DNA from: Knoellia flava TL1
Lineage (GTDB): Bacteria; Actinomycetota; Actinomycetes; Actinomycetales; Dermatophilaceae
DNA: 64,000 nt
Direction of reading: 5' to 3'
Assembly (NCBI RefSeq): GCF_000768675.1
Contig: NZ_AVPI01000023.1
Location: 1-64,000, forward strand
Every line of letters begins with the position of its first letter. Position 1 is the stretch's first letter. Positions 1,127-10,441 of this stretch are shown piece after piece. Below the pieces are notes generated by a model. The model did no database searches and was not told the origin of the DNA. It saw nothing but the letters and a program-made list of their open reading frames with translations. The position numbers were made by a program, and so were the translations under genes.

Positions 1127-1810
1127 TCACGCGGGTTCGCCGGCGACGGCGAGCGCATCGGGGACCGAGCTCGCGAGCGGCAGGCTCGCGAGCTCGGTCT
1201 CCGTCACCCACCGGGCCGCCGAGGTCGAGCCACCCACGTCGAGCACGACGGGGTCGGTCGGCTCGTGACAGGCCGCGGTGTGGAAGAGCCGCACCGCGTG
1301 GAAGTCCTCGACCCGTCCGCTCGGCGCCCGGCCGACCCAGTGCCGCGTGAGCACCGTGAGGAGCCGCACGTCGGTCACCCGCTGGCCGGTCTCCTCGTGG
1401 ACCTCGCGGACGACGGCGTCGACTGGCTGCTCACCCGGGTCGAGACCCCCGCCGGGCAGGTTCCACAGACCGGCCGCGTTGGTCCGTTCGGAGAGCTCGG
1501 TGAGGAGCACACCCCGGCTGCTGCGCACGACGGCATATGCCGCGATGCGTTGGTAGGGAACGGCGTTCGCGACGTCGACCTCCGTGAGCCCGTCGTCGCG
1601 CGGCACACTCGGACCGGTGGCGGCGGTGACGTCGTCGCGGAGGCGTTGGACGGCATACCGGATCTCGAGGTCGTCGGACGTGCTGCGGACGGCGGACAGC
1701 GGTGAGCCGGCCCAGCCGAGCGCGGCGAGCTCCGTCGCGGGGTCCGTGCCGTGCCCGAGCTCGAAGCGGGCCACCTCCTCCCCCGCGTGGAGTGCGACGA
1801 CGGCGATCAC
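1127..1810 (-). CDS. Nudix hydrolase
   Basis: The 227-residue protein has a complete Nudix box at about residues 120-142 (GGG-x5-E, then REVHEETG), the Mg-binding signature of enzymes that cleave nucleoside diphosphates linked to another moiety. The substrate cannot be read from the sequence. About 85 residues precede the Nudix fold and match nothing I recognise. The GTG start overlaps the stop of the upstream glycosyltransferase (GTGA), so the two are translationally coupled. Two copies of the GTATGCCG-type motif lie in the gene: one in the Arg-Tyr-Ala-Val stretch near residue 51, and an overlapping double site near residue 91. Confidence 0.85.
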   Translation of the reverse strand: MIAVVALHAGEEVARFELGHGTDPATELAALGWAGSPLSAVRSTSDDLEIRYAVQRLRDDVTAATGPSVPRDDGLTEVDVANAVPYQRIAAYAVVRSSRGVLLTELSERTNAAGLWNLPGGGLDPGEQPVDAVVREVHEETGQRVTDVRLLTVLTRHWVGRAPSGRVEDFHAVRLFHTAACHEPTDPVVLDVGGSTSAARWVTETELASLPLASSVPDALAVAGEPA

Positions 1811-2952
1811 CGGGCGGCCTCGTGGAGGGACCGTGCCCGGGCGTACTCGTCGAGCGTCGCGTCGACGACGCGCTCCCAGGACTGCGCGGGCGACGTCCCG
1901 AGGTTGTGGGCCCGCAGCCGCGCCAGCTCCTCGGGGTGGGCAGCGAGCTCCGCGAGGGCCGTCGCGAGACCCGCGTCGGACGAGCGGAGTATGCCGTCGC
2001 GCCCGTCCTCGACGAAGTCGTCGACCCCTGTGCCCTTCCGGGCCAGGACCGCGAGACCCGCGGTGCGCGCCTCGAGGGCCGCGATGCCGAAGGCCTCGAG
2101 CCGTGCGGTCGTGAGGTAGGCGTCGCTGCGCCAGTGCAGGTCACGCAGGGCGTCGCGGTCGAGGCGTCCCGGCGTGTGCACCCAGTCGACGCCGTGGCGG
2201 TCGAGCTCCGCCCGCACGAGCCGCCGCTGAGGTCCGTCACCGATGAGGTGGGCCTCGAGGCGCGCGCCGGGCGCCAGGGTGTGGAGCCGCTCGCGGGCCC
2301 CGCGCAGCACGTGGACGAGGGCGCCGGGTCGCTTGCGCCGGACGAAGCGCAGCGCGCTGACGACGCGCACGACGCCGTCGTCGGGTCGCTGCGTGCCGAG
2401 GTCCTGCGGTGGCCGCCAGTGGTCGACGTCGATGCCGTTGCCGAGGACGTGCACGTCCGTCGTGCCGGCGACCTCGCCCACCCGCTCGGCGGCCATCGCC
2501 GACACCGCCGACAGGGCGACCCCGGCGTCGTGCCAACGGCGCGCGTGGCCGAGCAGCCGGAAGACCGGGATGCTGCGGTCGAGGACGCAGTGCCAGGTCG
2601 TCGCCGTCGGCAGACCGGCGCCGAGCGCGACGCCGACCATGTCCGTGGCGAAGGGGCTCACGACGCCCATGTGCGCGTGCGCGACGTCGAAGCGGCCGTG
2701 GCGGAGGAGGGCGGCGACCTCGTCCTTGACGAACGGGTTCACCGGCGGCGCCCCCGGCACGCGCAGCGGGAGGCGGTGGACGGTGACGCCCCCGGACGAG
2801 GTCGTCGAGTGCTCTCGGGTGTCGCCTGCGGTCGCGGTGACGACCTCGACCTCGTGCCCGGCCGCGGCGAGCCGGTGCGCGAGGTCGTGCACCTGGACCT
2901 CGATCCCGCCGACGCGCGGCAGGTAGCAGTCCGACAAAAGGGCGATCCTCAC
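1807..2952 (-). CDS. GT4-family glycosyltransferase
   Basis: The protein has the GT-B layout of retaining GT4 enzymes. The N-terminus RIALLSDCYLPRVGGIE carries the Gly-Gly acceptor loop. The linker contains GNGIDVDHW, and the C-terminal half carries the EAFGIAALEA-type nucleotide-sugar motif. Such enzymes transfer a sugar from an NDP donor to lipid or small-molecule acceptors at the membrane; MshA and the Pim transferases are relatives. The GTG at 2952 starts exactly at the conserved strand; an ATG at 2970 would add six residues. It is divergent from the PIG-L gene only 35 bp away, and the three neighbours look like a small glycoconjugate locus. Confidence 0.85.
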   Translation of the reverse strand: MRIALLSDCYLPRVGGIEVQVHDLAHRLAAAGHEVEVVTATAGDTREHSTTSSGGVTVHRLPLRVPGAPPVNPFVKDEVAALLRHGRFDVAHAHMGVVSPFATDMVGVALGAGLPTATTWHCVLDRSIPVFRLLGHARRWHDAGVALSAVSAMAAERVGEVAGTTDVHVLGNGIDVDHWRPPQDLGTQRPDDGVVRVVSALRFVRRKRPGALVHVLRGARERLHTLAPGARLEAHLIGDGPQRRLVRAELDRHGVDWVHTPGRLDRDALRDLHWRSDAYLTTARLEAFGIAALEARTAGLAVLARKGTGVDDFVEDGRDGILRSSDAGLATALAELAAHPEELARLRAHNLGTSPAQSWERVVDATLDEYARARSLHEAAR

Positions 2953-2974
2953 GAGAGACCAGCCTGCCATGCGT

Positions 2975-2980
2975 CAGGAT
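2975..2980 (+). promoter_or_regulatory. -10 element of a near-leaderless promoter (PIG-L gene)
   Basis: CAGGAT lies 7 bp before the ATG at 2988, so transcription would start at or next to the start codon. No ribosome binding site is needed under this reading. The element overlaps the alternative ATG at 2979, arguing against that start. Confidence 0.4.
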
Positions 2981-2987
2981 GGACGCG

Positions 2988-3833
2988 ATGACTCGCACGC
3001 TCGTGGCCTTCCACGCCCATCCCGACGACGAGGCCCTCCTCACCTCCGGCACCATGGCCAAGGCTGCAGCGCAGGGGCACCGCGTCGTCCTCGTGGTCGC
3101 GACCGACGGCGCCCTGGGCCTCGCGTCCGACGACTTCCGCACCGACGGCGACCTCGCCGCGACCCGGCTCGACGAGACCCGCGCCTCCGCCGAGGTCCTC
3201 GGGGTCGACCGCGTCGAGTGGCTGGGCTACGCCGACTCCGGGCACGACGGCCCGGTGCCCGAGAACCCGCCCGGGCGGGTGCGCTTCTGCCGGGCCCCGG
3301 TCGAGGAGGCCGCCGAGCGCCTCGCCGCCGTCCTCACGACCGAGCGCGCCGACGTCCTCCTCACCTACGACGCCGCCGGTGGCTACGGGCACCGCGACCA
3401 CGTGCGCGTGCACGAGGTCGGCGCCCGGGCCGCCGAGATCGCCGGCACCCAGCGGGTGCTCGAGGCCACCGTCCCGCGGGACACCATCGCCCGGGCCGTG
3501 CGGCTCGCGGCCAAGGTCTATCCCTTCCCGAAGGAGTTCGACCCGACGAGCTTCGAGCGGGCCTTCACCGCACGGGCCGACATCACCCACCGCGTCGACG
3601 TCCGCCGTCACATCGCCGCCAAGCGCGCGTCGATGCGCGCCCACGCCTCTCAGGCCTCCAACGACGGCTCGCAGAGCGGGGACAGGACTCTCGCCGCGTT
3701 CCTGAGGATCCCGCGCCCGCTCTTCGACCTCGTCTTCGGGCGCGAGTGGTTCCGCGACCCGAGCGTGGGGCGCGGCGGCAACGGGACGGGTGCGGACGGC
3801 ATACGGACCGACGTCTTCGAGGGGCTGGCATGA
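2988..3833 (+). CDS. PIG-L family deacetylase (LmbE-like)
   Basis: The 281-residue protein carries the zinc motif AHPDDE at residues 10-15 and the second metal/active-site motif GHRDHVRVH at about 132-140. These are the hallmarks of the PIG-L/LmbE fold that removes N-acetyl groups from GlcNAc-containing small molecules and glycolipids (MshB, Mca, PIG-L). Lacking Mca-specific features, it is more likely a GlcNAc-conjugate deacetylase of unknown substrate. The start at 2988 is chosen over 2979 because a -10-like CAGGAT abuts it. Its stop overlaps the ATG of the next gene (ATGA), so the two are coupled. Confidence 0.85.
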   Translation: MTRTLVAFHAHPDDEALLTSGTMAKAAAQGHRVVLVVATDGALGLASDDFRTDGDLAATRLDETRASAEVLGVDRVEWLGYADSGHDGPVPENPPGRVRFCRAPVEEAAERLAAVLTTERADVLLTYDAAGGYGHRDHVRVHEVGARAAEIAGTQRVLEATVPRDTIARAVRLAAKVYPFPKEFDPTSFERAFTARADITHRVDVRRHIAAKRASMRAHASQASNDGSQSGDRTLAAFLRIPRPLFDLVFGREWFRDPSVGRGGNGTGADGIRTDVFEGLA

Positions 3834-4885
3834 GTCCGCGCGCGAAGCAGCTCCTGCGTGCCGTCATCGGGCTGGGTCTCGCCGCCGCCCTGCTGGGCTG
3901 GGGCTTCCCCAAGGTCGCCAAGACGACGTGGGGTGAGGTCTTCGACCAGCTCCAGCGGGTGACCGTCGTGGAGTCCCTCGGGTTCCTCGGGCTCGTCCTG
4001 CTCGGCCTCGGTTGCTACACGTTCACCTTCACCGGGTCGCTGCCCGGCCTGAGCCAGTGGCGCGCCTTCATCGTCAACATCTGCGGCTCGTCGGTGAGCA
4101 ACCTCCTCCCCGGTGGCGGGGCGGTGGGGCTCGCGGCGACCTACACGATCCTCCGGTCGTGGGGCTTCAGGAACCGCGACGTGTCGACCTCCGCCATCGT
4201 CACCGGCGTGTGGAACACCCTCGCCCGGATCGCGCTGCCGATCGTCGCCATCGTCATGCTCTGGTTCGGCAACGACGGCCTGCCGAGGTCGCTCACGAGC
4301 GCGGCCTGGGCAGCCACGATCTCGGGGTTGGCCATCTTCGCCGCGTTCGTCGCGATCCTCGCGAGCGAACGGGCGGCCCAGAGCATCGGGCGCGGGCTCG
4401 ACCGGGTGCTGGGCCCGCTCTTCCGCCGGCGCAAGCGCACGATGAGCGTGAGCGAGCTCGTCCACGACATGCGCGGCCGGATCAACGAGGTCGTCCGCAC
4501 CGGCTGGGTGCAGATGACGCTCGGGATGATCGGGTTCTTCGGCTTCTACTACCTGCTCTTCGTCCTCATCATGCGGACCGTCGGCGTCGACATGCTGCCG
4601 CTGGGGATCCTCTTCGCGGCGTTCGCCATCGGGCGCCTGCTCACGGCGGTGGGAGTCACGCCGGGTGGTGTCGGCGTCACCGAGATCGCCTCGGTCGCGG
4701 CGCTCGTCGGCTGGGGCGCCCCACCGGAGGCCGCGGCCGCCGGCATCTTCCTCTTCTCGATCTTCACGCACCTCATGGAGGTGCCCCTCGGCGCGCTCGG
4801 GTGGCTCGCGTGGTCGATGAGCCCGCGGGTCAAGGGCGCCTCCGGCGAGGACGAGGACGAGCCCGCCCGGGCCGTCACCCCCTGA
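3830..4885 (+). CDS. LPG-synthase-type (UPF0104) integral membrane protein
   Basis: The 351-residue protein is almost entirely transmembrane, with about 8-9 hydrophobic segments. Diagnostic points are the GSSVSNLLPGGGAVGLAATY segment (about residues 85-105) and the late TPGGVGVTEI motif (about residues 279-288), both typical of the lysylphosphatidylglycerol-synthase transmembrane (flippase-like) family. The soluble aminoacyl-transfer domain of MprF is absent, so a lipid-flipping or glycolipid-handling role is more likely than lysinylation. It overlaps the PIG-L gene by 4 bp and ends in an acidic tail. The combination with GT4 and PIG-L suggests assembly and translocation of a deacetylated glycolipid; that link is inference. 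Confidence 0.8.
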   Translation: MSPRAKQLLRAVIGLGLAAALLGWGFPKVAKTTWGEVFDQLQRVTVVESLGFLGLVLLGLGCYTFTFTGSLPGLSQWRAFIVNICGSSVSNLLPGGGAVGLAATYTILRSWGFRNRDVSTSAIVTGVWNTLARIALPIVAIVMLWFGNDGLPRSLTSAAWAATISGLAIFAAFVAILASERAAQSIGRGLDRVLGPLFRRRKRTMSVSELVHDMRGRINEVVRTGWVQMTLGMIGFFGFYYLLFVLIMRTVGVDMLPLGILFAAFAIGRLLTAVGVTPGGVGVTEIASVAALVGWGAPPEAAAAGIFLFSIFTHLMEVPLGALGWLAWSMSPRVKGASGEDEDEPARAVTP

Positions 4886-4907: not shown

Positions 4908-7583
4908 TCAGTCCTGGACGAAGACGAGCGCCATCGGGGTCTGCTCGCTGCCCTGGCCCAGCGGGTTGTCGGCGAACATCTCCTCGAACCGGGTCTTGTC
5001 GCCGGGGACGTCGCTGCCGAGGACGTTGCGGCCGATGTCGTTGGCGTCCATGACGATCGTCCCGGCGAACTGGTCCTGGTATGCCGTCGGCACCCGGTCG
5101 CGGATCGCGCGCGACAGCCGCGCGGCCACCCGGTCGGGGTCCTTGGGCGCCAGCTTGGCCGAGACGTTCGACGGGTAGGCGCTGTACTCGGTCGGGCCGT
5201 CGATGGCGCGGATGTCGTTGCCAACGAGCTCGTAGAAGAGGCCCTTGCGCCCGATCGCCTTGCCCACGGCACCGCCGGCGGCGGCGTAGAGGACGCGCGG
5301 GAGGCCTGCCTCCTCGATGGCGAGCTGCATCGTGAACGGTGAGCCGAGGCCGATGCCGGCCGGGGTGCGGGTGACGTACTTCGACAGGATGCGCGCCGGC
5401 TTGCCGACCTTGATGTCCCAGATGAAGTACGACCGCCCCTGCGTGATGGCGATGATCTTCTCGGAGATGAAGAGGTACCAGCGGCCCTTCGTCGCGGCGT
5501 CGTGCTCGGGCCCGCCCTGGGGCAGGGTCGCGAAGAACTCCTCGATGCGCGGCAGCACCTTGGCGTCGAGGTCGTCGTCGGCGGCGAAGAGATCGGTGCG
5601 CAGCGGGTAGCGGCGCACGGTCTCGCCGCGCTCGGTCGTGATGTCGAGGGCCTTGCCGGCGTTGGGCTCGAGGTCGGACTTCGGCGCCGCCTGGACCTGC
5701 GCCTTCTCCTCCTGCGGGGCCTCGTCGAAGAACTCCTGGAGCCACAGCTCGAGGTTGAGGAAGCGCCAGAACATCATCGTGTCGGCGTTGTTGCTGCCCT
5801 TGATCCAGCCCTCGAAGGCGTGGAGCACCTCGGTCTGCTCGAAGTACGGACGGTTGGCGAAGGACTCGCTGAGGAAGATCGAGTAGAAGTGGTTCTTGAG
5901 CCGCATGAACCACTCGGACTGCGGCGTCGTGAAGCCGATCTTGTTGCGGCGGCGGTTGATTGACTCGGGCAGCAGGCCGCGGGTCGCGTCGCGCAGGATG
6001 CGCTTGTTCCAGCCGTCCTTGATGATCGCCTCGTCGGTGAGGCTGAAGATGAACTTCACGACCTCCTTGTCGAGGAACGGCACGCGCCCCTCGAGCGAGA
6101 ACCGCATCGTGTTCTTGTCCTCGTAGCGCAGCAGGCTCGGCAGGCTGTTGTGGAAGAGGTCCTCGATGAGCCGCTTCTTGAGGTTCGACTGCTCCACGGG
6201 GAAGCGCTCGTCGGTGAACTGCGAGGTGAAGTCGCGCTTGAGCAGCGAGGTCACCGGCACGTCCTTGCGGCCCTTGAGCTTGGCCTTGACGCGGAAGCGG
6301 CCGAGGCGGAAGAGGACGTCGAGGCTCTTGCTCAGCTCGGCGGCGGCGACCTTGGCGCCCTGCGCCCGCAGCTGGCGGAGGTAGACGGCGTAGTAGGGGA
6401 TGTAGCCGGCCATCATCTCGTCGGCGCCCTGACCGTCGAGGAGGACCGTGACGTGCTTGGTGGCCTCGCGCATCACCTGGTACTGCGCGTAGGGGCCGCT
6501 GGAGATGAGCGGCTCCTCCTGGGTGCGCACGAAGTCGCGCAGGTCGGCCTTGAACTCGTCGGCGGTCGGGAGGATCTTGTGGCCGTCGACGTGCCCCTTG
6601 CAGATGTCGAGGACGGCGTCGACGTACTGCTCCTCGTCGTTGATCGAGTTCGGGAAGACGGCGCTGAAGGTGTTCTGCTGCACGCCGACCGACCGGGTGC
6701 GCTCGTCGCCCTCGTTGATGAGCTGGTTGATGACGACGGCGACGGCCGAGCTGTCGAGGCCGCCCGAGAGCGACGTGCCGACGGGGACCTCGGACTGGAG
6801 ACGGAGCCGCACGGCCTCGACGAAGCGCTCCTTGTACTCGGCCGCGGCGGCGTCGTCGTAGGGGCGCTGCTCGAGCGCGAGCTCGGCGAGCTCCTCGCGC
6901 AGGCGGGTGAACATCGAGCGCCGGATGCCGTCGGCGTCGGCCTCGAGCATCTCGCCGGGCTGGAGCCGCTCGATGCCGTCGAAGAACGTCTCCGTGCCGT
7001 CCTCGTGGGCGCGGAAGCGCAGGTAGCGGTAGATCGAGCGCTCGTTGGGCTTCTTCTCGTAGAGCCCGCTGGCGAGGATCGGGCGGATCTCGCTGGAGAA
7101 GAGCAGGGCCTCTCCGGTGACGTCGCCGTCGGAGGCGGGCACCCGGCATACGTAGACGGGCTTGATGCCGAAGTGGTCGCGCGCGAGGGTGAGCCGCTGC
7201 TCGTCGCGGTCCCAGATGGCGAGGCCGAACATGCCGTTGAAGCGGTCGAACGCCTCGCCGCCCCACTGCGCGAACGCCTGGAGGACGACCTCGGTGTCGC
7301 TGTCGGTCTCGAACGTGCGGCCGAGGCCCTCGAGCTCGGCCCGCAGGTCGAGGTAGTTGTAGACCTCGCCGTTGTAGGCGATCGTGTAGCGCCCGTCGGC
7401 CGTCGCCATGGGCTGCTGCCCGTGCGCGACGTCGATGATCGACAGCCGCCGGTGCGCGAGTCCGCACGGTCCCTCGACGAAGAGCCCGTCGCCGTCGGGA
7501 CCTCGGTGCTGCTGGCAGTCGTTCATCGTGGCGAGGAGAGCCTCGTCCGCCGGAAGTCCGTAGTAGCCCGCGATGCCGCACAT
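4908..7583 (-). CDS. asnB: Asparagine synthetase (glutamine-hydrolysing) with fused CofE/COG1478-like C-terminal domain
   Basis: Residues 1-200 form the class II glutamine amidotransferase domain: Cys2 in MCGIAGYYG, RRLSIID, and YNGEVYN. Residues about 230-640 form the AMP-forming synthetase domain, with the pyrophosphate loop SGGLDSS at about 272-278. The protein should make asparagine, or amidate a carboxylate, using glutamine and ATP. Ordinary relatives end near residue 640. Here about 240 more residues continue in frame, with FISEKIIAITQGRS, TPAGIGLGSPFTMQLAI, VDANDIGRNVLG and DNPLGQGSEQTP. These match what I remember of proteins annotated F420-0:gamma-glutamyl ligase (COG1478). The fusion suggests both reactions act on one substrate or pathway. 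The gene stands alone, convergent with the membrane protein gene. Confidence 0.85.
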   Translation of the reverse strand: MCGIAGYYGLPADEALLATMNDCQQHRGPDGDGLFVEGPCGLAHRRLSIIDVAHGQQPMATADGRYTIAYNGEVYNYLDLRAELEGLGRTFETDSDTEVVLQAFAQWGGEAFDRFNGMFGLAIWDRDEQRLTLARDHFGIKPVYVCRVPASDGDVTGEALLFSSEIRPILASGLYEKKPNERSIYRYLRFRAHEDGTETFFDGIERLQPGEMLEADADGIRRSMFTRLREELAELALEQRPYDDAAAAEYKERFVEAVRLRLQSEVPVGTSLSGGLDSSAVAVVINQLINEGDERTRSVGVQQNTFSAVFPNSINDEEQYVDAVLDICKGHVDGHKILPTADEFKADLRDFVRTQEEPLISSGPYAQYQVMREATKHVTVLLDGQGADEMMAGYIPYYAVYLRQLRAQGAKVAAAELSKSLDVLFRLGRFRVKAKLKGRKDVPVTSLLKRDFTSQFTDERFPVEQSNLKKRLIEDLFHNSLPSLLRYEDKNTMRFSLEGRVPFLDKEVVKFIFSLTDEAIIKDGWNKRILRDATRGLLPESINRRRNKIGFTTPQSEWFMRLKNHFYSIFLSESFANRPYFEQTEVLHAFEGWIKGSNNADTMMFWRFLNLELWLQEFFDEAPQEEKAQVQAAPKSDLEPNAGKALDITTERGETVRRYPLRTDLFAADDDLDAKVLPRIEEFFATLPQGGPEHDAATKGRWYLFISEKIIAITQGRSYFIWDIKVGKPARILSKYVTRTPAGIGLGSPFTMQLAIEEAGLPRVLYAAAGGAVGKAIGRKGLFYELVGNDIRAIDGPTEYSAYPSNVSAKLAPKDPDRVAARLSRAIRDRVPTAYQDQFAGTIVMDANDIGRNVLGSDVPGDKTRFEEMFADNPLGQGSEQTPMALVFVQD

Positions 7584-7673: not shown

Positions 7674-9257
7674 TCACTCCCACTCGATGGTGCCCGGCGG
7701 CTTGCTCGTGACGTCGAGCACGACCCGGTTGACCTCGCGCACCTCGTTGGTGATGCGGGTCGAGATCTTGGCGAGCACGTCATAGGGGACGCGCGTCCAG
7801 TCCGCCGTCATCGCGTCCTCGGACGACACGGGCCGCAGCACGACGGGGTGGCCGTAGGTGCGGCCGTCGCCCTGGACGCCGACAGAGCGGACGTCGGCGA
7901 GCAGCACGACCGGGCACTGCCAGATCTCTCGGTCGAGCCCGGCCGCGGTGAGCTCGTGGCGGGCGATCTGGTCGGCGGCGCGCAGGATGTCGAGCCGCTC
8001 CGCCGTCACCTCGCCGACGATGCGGATGCCGAGGCCGGGGCCCGGGAAGGGCTGGCGCCAGACGATGCCCTCGGGCACACCGAGCTCGAGGCCGACCTGG
8101 CGCACCTCGTCCTTGAAGAGGAGGCGCAGCGGCTCGATGAGCGTGAACTGGAGGTCGTCGGGCAGGCCGCCGACGTTGTGGTGGGACTTGATGTTGGCCG
8201 TGCCCGTGCCCCCGCCGGACTCGACGACGTCGGGATAGAGGGTGCCCTGCACGAGGAACTCGACCGGGTGGCCGTCGCGCTCGGCCGAGCCGACGACGTC
8301 GCGGGCCGCCTGCTCGAAGACGCGGATGAACTCGCGCCCGATGATCTTGCGCTTCTCCTCGGGGTCCGAGACCCCGGCGAGGGCGTTCAGGAACTGCTCC
8401 TTGGCGTCGACGACGACGAGGTCGACCCCGGTCGCCTCGACGAACTCCTTCTCGACCTGCTCGGCCTCGCCGGAGCGCAGAAGCCCGTGGTCGACGAAGA
8501 CGCAGGTGAGCTGGTCACCCACGGCCCGCTGCACGAGCGCCGCGGCGACCGACGAGTCGACGCCGCCCGACAGCGCGCACAGCACGTGCTTGTCGCCGAC
8601 GGTCTCCTTGACCTGCTCGACGAGCGACTCGACGACGTTGTGCGCCGTCCAGTCGCCGGAGAGGCCCGCTCCGCGCAGGAGGAAGTTCTCGAGCACCCGC
8701 TGGCCGAAGGTCGAGTGCATGACCTCGGGGTGCCACTGCACGCCGTAGAGCCGGCGCTCGTCGTCCTCGAAGGCGGCGACCGGCGCGCCGGACGTCGTCG
8801 CCGTGACCCGCATGCCCTCGGGCGCGGCCGTCGCGGCGTCACCGTGGCTCATCCACACCGACTGGTCTGAGGGCTGGCCGTTGAAGAGGGTCGACTCGGT
8901 GTCGGAGACCTGCGCGGGGGTCGAGCCGTACTCACCCAGACCGGTCCGCTCGACGGTGCCGCCCAGCGCCTGGACCATCGCCTGGAAGCCGTAGCACATG
9001 CCGAAGACCGGCACCCCGGCCTCGAGCAGCGACGGGTCGAGGCTCGGCGCTCCCTCCTCGTAGACCGAGCTCGGCCCGCCGGAGAGGATGATCGCCGCCG
9101 GCTCCTTGGCGAGCATCTCGCTCGCCGCCATCGTCGAGGGGACGACCTCGCTGAAGACGTTGGCCTCGCGCACGCGGCGCGCGATGAGCTGGGCGTACTG
9201 GGCGCCGAAGTCGACGACGAGCACCGGGCGGTCGGACAGGTGGGGGGTCTCGCTCAC
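7674..9257 (-). CDS. guaA: GMP synthase (glutamine-hydrolysing)
   Basis: The 527-residue protein converts XMP to GMP with ATP and glutamine. The N-terminal amidotransferase has its catalytic Cys at 88 (FGMCYGFQ) and the His/Glu pair in GVQWHPEV (about 173-180). The ATP-pyrophosphatase domain begins at the loop ALSGGVDSS (about 229-237), and the C-terminal dimerisation part ends in KPPGTIEWE, as in full-length GuaA. The GTG start at 9257 lies 6 bp behind a TAGCCT -10 box, so the mRNA is probably leaderless. It follows a gene set on the same strand (UdgX, SURF1, DUF3817). guaB and guaB3 lie 10-15 kb away. Confidence 0.97.
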
Positions 9258-9263
9258 GCAGAC

Positions 9264-9269
9264 AGGCTA
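9264..9269 (-). promoter_or_regulatory. -10 element, leaderless guaA promoter
   Basis: Read on the minus strand, TAGCCT lies 6 nt before the GTG start of guaA. This spacing puts the transcription start at the start codon, a frequent arrangement in actinobacteria. No -35 is obvious. Confidence 0.5.
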
Positions 9270-9303
9270 CCGGCGGCGCCGGACGCCACGGTCGGGCCGT
9301 CGG

Positions 9304-9672
9304 TCAGTGGGCGGCCAGGCGGCCCTCGACCTCGGCGGCGACGCGGCGCTCGACCCAGAACGAGAGGAAGGGCACGCAACCGGCGAGCATGACGCCGACC
9401 ATCCTCGGCAGCGACCAGCCCACCTTGAAACCCAGGTTGGCGGTGGCGACGAGATAGACCATGTAGATGAAGCCGTGGGGCTGCGGCCACCACTTGAGCG
9501 GGTTCTGGTCGCCGCTCATCGACGTCGCGTACTCGAGCACCATCTCGACGACGAGCACGAGCAGGCCGACGCCGACGATGAACGCCATGACCTTGAAGAA
9601 GGTCAGCGCCTTGCGCGCCGCCGTCTCGTCCCGGATCTCGCGCTGCGTGCTGGTCTGGCTCACGTCACTCAC
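9304..9672 (-). CDS. DUF3817 integral membrane protein
   Basis: This short protein (about 122 residues) has three hydrophobic helices. The sequence PHGFIYMVYLV in the middle is the conserved core of the DUF3817 family, found in many actinobacteria and often next to guaA. Its function is unknown; membrane location is clear. The GTG at 9672 overlaps the stop of the SURF1 gene (GTGAGTGA), implying coupled translation; an ATG at 9681 is the alternative. Confidence 0.75.
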   Translation of the reverse strand: MSDVSQTSTQREIRDETAARKALTFFKVMAFIVGVGLLVLVVEMVLEYATSMSGDQNPLKWWPQPHGFIYMVYLVATANLGFKVGWSLPRMVGVMLAGCVPFLSFWVERRVAAEVEGRLAAH

Positions 9673-10441
9673 GCGCACCATTGTCGCCGCTCGCCTCGAG
9701 CACCTCGGCAGCGGCCTCGTCGTCGTCGCGCTTCTCGTCACGCACGATCCGCCACCACATGTAGAGCGCGAAGAGCGCGAAGGCCCACCACTGGAACGCG
9801 TATGCCGCGTTGCGCCACTTGAAGCCCGTCTCACCCGACGGGGTCGGCACCCGTTCCATCGAGCCGAGCGTGGTCGGCGGCGCGGCCGGCGACTCCTCCT
9901 GCTGGAAGACGAACGCGTTGTAGAGGTCGCCCGGCCAGCGCCCCACGAGCACCGAGGTGTCGACCGAGCCGAGCTGGCCCTCGGGAGGTGCCTGGCCGGC
10001 ATACGGGGACTCGGGCGGAGCCAGCCCACCCGTGACGGTGACGGAGCCCGACGGGACCGGCGGCAGGTCCGACGGCGAGGTGACGAAGCCGCGCAGCACC
10101 GGCAGGGTCGCGCCCGTGGACGCGACCCGCAGCGGCGCGACGACCCAGAAGCCTGTGCGCCCGTCCAGCCGCCGGTTGGCGACGACGACCTGGTCGGTCC
10201 CGAACTCCCCGGTCGCGGTGACCGGGCGGGTGCTCAGCTCCCCGGGGAAGTCGGAGTGGGGACGCAGGACGGTCTCGACGGCGACCGGCTGCTGGGAGCG
10301 GGCCCGTTCGAGCGACTCGCGCAGCGCCTCGTCCTCGGCGACCCCCAGCTGCCACCGGCCGAGCTGGACGAAGGCGATGACGACGAGGACGGCGACCGCG
10401 AGCAGCGCGAGGTTGCGGGGCTTGGTCGCGGTCCGGAGCAC
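9665..10441 (-). CDS. SURF1 family cytochrome oxidase assembly factor
   Basis: The 258-residue protein has the SURF1 plan. An N-terminal transmembrane helix (about residues 10-29) is followed by LGRWQL, a periplasmic/extracellular domain with VLRGFV and the NAFVFQ segment, and a C-terminal helix (about 220-240) in NAAYAFQWWAFALFALYMWW. SURF1 proteins help insert haem into the aa3-type cytochrome c oxidase. The GTG at 10441 is the first plausible start before the first helix; a longer reading would run into the UdgX gene. It sits 38 bp after udgX and overlaps the DUF3817 gene. Confidence 0.85.
   Translation of the reverse strand: MLRTATKPRNLALLAVAVLVVIAFVQLGRWQLGVAEDEALRESLERARSQQPVAVETVLRPHSDFPGELSTRPVTATGEFGTDQVVVANRRLDGRTGFWVVAPLRVASTGATLPVLRGFVTSPSDLPPVPSGSVTVTGGLAPPESPYAGQAPPEGQLGSVDTSVLVGRWPGDLYNAFVFQQEESPAAPPTTLGSMERVPTPSGETGFKWRNAAYAFQWWAFALFALYMWWRIVRDEKRDDDEAAAEVLEASGDNGARE

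Follow-up and report, generated by a model that had tools for sequence, protein, structure and literature searches.

An AsnB-type amidotransferase fused to a CofE-like domain in Knoellia flava, with relatives in Actinomycetota and Patescibacteria

What reaction would be served by a single protein that joins an asparagine synthetase-like amidotransferase to a domain resembling F420-0:gamma-glutamyl ligase? The question is raised by a gene in the window, by which we mean the whole stretch of 64,000 nucleotides that was analysed (Knoellia flava TL1, contig NZ_AVPI01000023.1). An earlier note on this DNA had described AsnB joined to a COG1478-like ligase domain at 4908-7583, and the description was borne out by the open reading frame, by Pfam and by a match of the C-terminal part to the CofE fold. 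The gene is a single ORF on the minus strand (4908..7583; all features given below are on this strand), with the ATG at 7583 and the stop codon at 4908-4910, and its product has 891 aa. The N-terminal part (approximately residues 1-217; 6933..7583) is a class II glutamine amidotransferase with the nucleophile Cys2 and the motifs YNGEVYN and SDTE, and is matched by Pfam GATase_7 at residues 44-170 (E 6.9e-43). An Asn_synthase domain occupies residues 250-616 (5736..6836; PF00733, E 1.9e-64), and the CofE-like domain extends from approximately residue 640 to 891 (4911..5666). All named closest matches are from Knoellia or Janibacter HTCC2649. A chance or assembly artefact was ruled out as the source of the fusion, the same frame being open across dozens of independent assemblies. 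Next to the gene is a block of LPG_synthase_TM, PIG-L, GT4 and NUDIX genes (1127-4885 of the window), which is convergent to the fusion and is conserved beside it in Knoellia and in several relatives.

The C-terminal domain is distantly related to PF01996 (F420_ligase). The window protein alone is sub-threshold for this model, its C-terminal part scoring 18.9 bits against a cut-off of 25 bits (E 0.0012; 0.028 for the whole protein), but 18 of 19 relatives of the domain matched the model (best 3.2e-11) and several exceeded the cut-off, reaching up to 55 bits, so that the similarity to F420_ligase families put forward for residues 640-891 is significant in the relatives. Structure prediction, which had also been proposed, gave an AlphaFold2 model of the domain with a pLDDT of 86. 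When this model was used for a structural search, the only PDB entries to stand out were those of Archaeoglobus CofE (2phn; Z 13.2 over 184 residues, rmsd 4.0), the next unrelated chain having a Z of 4.6. PDB sequences were also searched with the domain, both as a single sequence and as a profile, and gave nothing meaningful; only the structural search succeeded. As modelled, the C-terminal domain has the CofE fold.

Conserved D, D/N, E and R residues were found across 24 diverse members of the domain family. The Glu of the SEKIIAIT motif (residues 707-714; 5442..5465) is invariant in 24/24, and D795 in IDGPTEYS (5181..5204) and D846 and N848 in VMDANDIGR (5028..5054) are likewise invariant. 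D795 and D846 align with the Asp residues of GID and DTxGR in CofE, which we take to be metal ligands of that enzyme. The family thus resembles CofE and the N-terminal domain of FbiB (PF01996, TIGR01916) in its fold, in the two aligned Asp residues and over approximately positions 2-138 of the 218 in the PF01996 profile, after which the match stops. It differs from them in the C-terminal third: the corresponding part of CofE, including the deazaflavin contacts, has no equivalent segment in the alignment of the domain family, which has an NPLGQ..xTP motif instead. The NPLGQ motif (4953..4967) is typical of the domain family but not of CofE. R234 of Af-CofE, which contacts the deazaflavin, lies in this C-terminal part of the enzyme (PMC10861534).

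The AsnB half resembles asparagine synthetase B (TIGR01536, E. coli AsnB, human ASNS) in its domain order and in its motifs, with Cys2 (MCGI), YNGE, the PP-loop SGGLDSS (residues 273-279; 6747..6767) and the DE motif all intact. Apart from the extra CofE-like domain, it differs in the loop DGQGADE (residues 383-389; 6417..6437), which reads SGEGxDE in asparagine synthetases; the Knoellia protein has Asp for Ser-362 and Gln (Q385) for the essential Glu (human E364). When supplied with aspartate, ATP and ammonia, neither the E364Q nor the E364A version of human ASNS is active (PMC6748925). Residues 1-640 had been taken for a normal class B asparagine synthetase, a description that the Gln at this position contradicts. 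All intact AsnBs that partner the CofE-like domain and were examined have Q (the fusions, G716 and G242) or N (G020, G613 and G459) at the E364 position. Other AsnB proteins of those genomes mostly have E or D, the exceptions with Q being a paralogue of the NAGGN group in G242 and two domain-less copies (L116 and L124), which are members of the partner clade that lost the CofE-like domain. Among unrelated proteins, the NAGGN synthase group (TIGR03104; L225 scores 970 bits) typically carries Q at this position, where it is common (13 Q among 25 actinobacterial comparison proteins). The Q signature is therefore not unique to the partner clade; it counts against free aspartate as substrate and names no other. 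The partner AsnBs group as a single clade, with support of 100/98, apart from the NAGGN group.

Fused genes are present in Knoellia, Intrasporangium, Terrabacter, Humibacillus, Flexivirga and relatives (Intrasporangiaceae, Dermacoccaceae), and also in Coriobacteriia, Saccharibacteria, Roizmanbacteria and other Patescibacteria. The CofE-like domain was found in 22 of 58 near relatives, in 16 of 395 genomes of the class and in 21 of 287 Patescibacteria-side genomes; in the latter two sets it is mostly a stand-alone protein of approximately 235 aa, and many stand-alone copies lack an AsnB neighbour. Unfused AsnB and domain genes lie side by side in four further genomes. One of these, on the Intrasporangiaceae side (G020), has the pair at the same locus as the fusion. 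The other three (G459, G613 and G716) are Patescibacteria-side; the two genes overlap by four bases in G716, and the order lemA-M48-AsnB-domain-gatC-gatA in G613 is that found around the fused gene in Roizmanbacteria. Whether the two parts are fused or adjacent in relatives, a question raised with the original observation, can thus be answered with both: fused across Actinomycetota and Patescibacteria, adjacent in four other genomes. These data support the pairing of AsnB and domain as evolutionarily meaningful. In the tree, the actinobacterial fusions are nested inside the Patescibacteria fusions, and a further change of state is needed to accommodate G242. The root and direction of this tree are uncertain, and one fusion event with later fission would be compatible with it. 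One sequence labelled Candidatus Nomurabacteria (L053) groups tightly with Coriobacteriia in both trees, and may be mis-binned or a recent transfer. No match was found in the plasmid sequences searched, and none of the viral contigs searched carried the domain. Two unannotated sequences from human stool that are labelled bacteriophage (L259, MT835656.1; and MT838774.1) encode a stand-alone domain with 35-42 percent identity to that of L205; both could be contamination from Patescibacteria.

The two halves of the fusion have been under separate selection. In K. remsis, HTCC2649, the Terrabacter/Humibacillus/I. flavum group, G033 and G046, the AsnB catalytic motifs are lost while the frame remains open and the domain is conserved. 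The decay takes the form of Cys to Ser replacement, a broken PP-loop and deletions, in various combinations, and catalytic death of the AsnB half is inferred from these residues. Identity to the window protein is 55 percent for the AsnB half vs 89 percent for the domain in K. remsis, 42 vs 75 percent in I. flavum and 28 vs 60 percent in G046. Similarly, dN/dS against the window gene for the AsnB half is 0.11-0.13 in intact Knoellia and 0.46-0.54 in K. remsis and HTCC2649, and for the CofE-like domain it is 0.14-0.22 throughout. Based on block identities, the unit kept when the AsnB half decays starts at approximately residue 551 and comprises the last AsnB helices, the linker and the CofE-like domain (residues 551-891; 4911..5933). 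The tree requires at least three changes between an intact and a decayed AsnB half. The genomes of K. remsis, HTCC2649 and G046 encode no further AsnB. In two genomes in which the gene has been duplicated (G033 and G446), copy A has a degenerate AsnB and the domain, and copy B an intact AsnB and no domain, a pattern of complementary loss that shows both halves to be under selection. Copy B of G444 has a degraded domain from which invariant residues are gone (SGE for SEK, DADDRG, DDPWG), whereas copy B of G443 and that of G445 look intact in either half. Each half has been retained in some lineages without the other, so that joint action in cis is not a requirement.

The explanation that we prefer, which is plausible if somewhat short of probable, is that the protein is a fused pair of amide-forming enzymes, one for ligation and one for carboxyl amidation, with a substrate that is neither free aspartate nor F420. 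We infer both chemistries. The fold and conserved acidic residues of the CofE-like domain suggest that it would activate a carboxylate, with the help of NTP and divalent metals, for ligation to an amine. The intact Cys2, YNGE, PP-loop and DE motifs suggest that the AsnB half would hydrolyse glutamine, activate a carboxylate as acyl-AMP and then amidate it, and the Gln at a position essential in asparagine synthetase points to a substrate other than free aspartate. By analogy, the two halves would probably share a substrate, either a small molecule or an envelope precursor. The analogy is with the osmolyte NAGGN, for which the peptide ligase Ngg makes a dipeptide that is amidated by the AsnB homologue AsnO (PMC8070244). 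Like the AsnO/Ngg (TIGR03104) pathway, the Knoellia protein combines an AsnB-family amidotransferase having Gln at the E364 position with an amide-forming ligase. It differs in that its AsnB belongs to another clade and misses the TIGR03104 cut-off (N-acetylglutaminylglutamine amidotransferase; 306.8 bits vs 570.1), and in that its ligase is CofE-like, not Ngg-type, and often fused. Of the amidation/glutamylation step on one metabolite suggested in the earlier note, the pairing of amidotransferase and ligase stands, but action of the halves together in cis is not required. Glutamylation itself is a guess: homology to CofE implies carboxylate activation and amide bond formation, but does not imply which amine is added. 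Counting against the preferred explanation are the retention of the domain with a degenerate AsnB, which shows that one pathway in cis is not required, the many stand-alone copies without an AsnB neighbour, and gene neighbours that vary by phylum and name no substrate. A further point against it is that the window protein passes TIGR01536, the asparagine synthase equivalog (392.5 bits vs a cut-off of 267.1).

This last result would be expected of a true asparagine synthetase, in which the Gln is tolerated and free asparagine is made, the C-terminal domain being a separate activity carried along by fusion. Such a role is also favored by the absence of any PF00733 protein other than the fusion and GuaA from the Knoellia flava TL1 genome, and by one Roizmanbacterium in which the next gene encodes a class II aaRS of the D/K/N group and is followed by gatCAB. 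We nevertheless consider it unlikely, given that human ASNS E364Q is inactive (PMC6748925), that fixation of Q or N at this position extends over the whole intact partner clade, and that the three genomes with a dead copy noted above (K. remsis, HTCC2649 and G046) lack a second AsnB. In addition, no AsnRS was found above the cut-off in the Knoellia flava TL1 genome, nor any in the Knoellia genomes checked, and GatB is present in TL1, indicating that free asparagine is unneeded for translation in this strain. The suggestion that the protein possibly does not serve free asparagine synthesis fits these data as well as the Gln at the E364 position. Turning to the C-terminal domain, the proposal of a fusion between AsnB and an F420-0:gamma-glutamyl ligase, or a FolC2-type folate glutamate ligase, can draw on the distant PF01996 homology and on the inclusion in COG1478 of a proven folate ligase, the non-F420 enzyme CT611 of Chlamydia (PMC1971073). 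The window protein, however, has no match to TIGR01916 (CofE) or TIGR04132 (FolC2), and stand-alone relatives of the domain score at most 30.3 bits with TIGR01916, far below its cut-off of 180.65. The genome's own F420 genes include a proper FbiB on another contig (128 bits), and genomes of Patescibacteria and Coriobacteriia that have the domain (G452, G454-G456) contain no F420_ligase match except the fusion itself. A role in F420 synthesis in the literal sense is therefore unsupported, and was rejected on these grounds and for the missing F420-contacting end. FolC2 and the domain family would be alike as COG1478 members acting outside F420, but TIGR04132 had no match across the domain family, its sole match, below the cut-off, being to another COG1478 protein of a Roizmanbacterium. 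Either ligase identity is in our view highly improbable.

A distinct concern is whether the CofE-like domain is still a ligase at all, or instead a CofE-fold domain that binds a nucleotide or ligand in a regulating or scaffolding capacity. The restriction of the PF01996 match to approximately the first 138 of 218 positions is in keeping with such a change, as are the C-terminal third and NPLGQ motif unlike those of CofE. The contrary is suggested by acidic and polar residues that are invariant even between highly diverged members, among them the two Asp that match those of CofE in the alignment, by strong purifying selection on the domain after loss of the AsnB half and by the stand-alone proteins in many genomes, and we regard loss of ligase function as unlikely. 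A narrower proposal is that the pair builds or decorates an envelope polymer, joining an amino acid to a uronic-acid-like carboxylate and amidating another carboxylate. In two Patescibacteria (L201 and L205) there is overlap between the domain gene and a Wzy_C O-antigen ligase gene, and domain genes are convergent to MurJ in f38, to a sugar-transfer ATP-grasp gene (ATP-grasp_ST) in f19 and to LPGS/PIG-L/GT4 genes in Intrasporangiaceae. Only the two Wzy_C cases are same-strand, however; the best conserved operon, lemA-M48-[AsnB-domain]-gatCAB, is without an envelope glycan gene, and the neighbours vary by phylum. The neighbourhood, with synteny in Intrasporangiaceae being with convergent genes, gave no single answer. 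Envelope glycan neighbours in some lineages are suggestive only, and this specific proposal is unlikely as it stands; a soluble amidated dipeptide-like product and an envelope role are equally possible. At several f19 loci with the same gene order (L095-L099, L108 and L109), the end of rpoD, which encodes the principal sigma factor, is overlapped or almost reached by the stand-alone CofE-like gene. The latter faces the sugar-transfer ATP-grasp gene, and several of the loci have an alanine-racemase-like gene nearby.

The folds of both halves are known ones. The searches made of NCBIfam, Pfam and the literature gave no coverage of the architecture, of the C-terminal domain family or of the pairing between this family and a distinct AsnB clade, and no paper on an AsnB-CofE fusion or on COG1478 in Patescibacteria was found. 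Under present models such proteins would be called asparagine synthase and F420 ligase, probably wrongly in both cases. It is conceivable, though speculative, that they belong to an undescribed two-step pathway of ligation and carboxyl amidation for a metabolite or envelope component common to Patescibacteria, Coriobacteriia and a few actinobacterial families. In that case the history would include exchange of the fused gene between Patescibacteria and Actinomycetota, and complementary loss would have separated the activities again on repeated occasions. Saccharibacteria, one of the Patescibacteria lineages with the AsnB-CofE-like family, live on actinobacteria. Identification of the substrate would reveal a biosynthetic capacity that reduced genomes have retained, and would extend COG1478 by a reaction outside F420 and folate. 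The family itself offers natural experiments, in the form of AsnB-dead copies, domain-less copies and unfused pairs, on which residues and halves matter.

Several related arrangements were observed. A second, different fusion is present in the Patescibacteria-side genome G533 (L213:7076-8488, plus strand), where the domain is fused to adenylate kinase in a protein of 470 aa within a secY-map ribosomal operon. In Roizmanbacterium G453 (L170:7176-8501, minus strand), the gene for a class I glutamine amidotransferase (189 aa) is followed immediately downstream by that for a second COG1478 protein (TIGR04132-like, 251 aa), making this another glutaminase-ligase neighbour pair. In a Coriobacteriales MAG (L054:2218-4095 and 8204-10326), an AsnB with the usual GEG loop lies directly upstream of the fusion, and dapF and a dapL-looking aminotransferase gene lie downstream.
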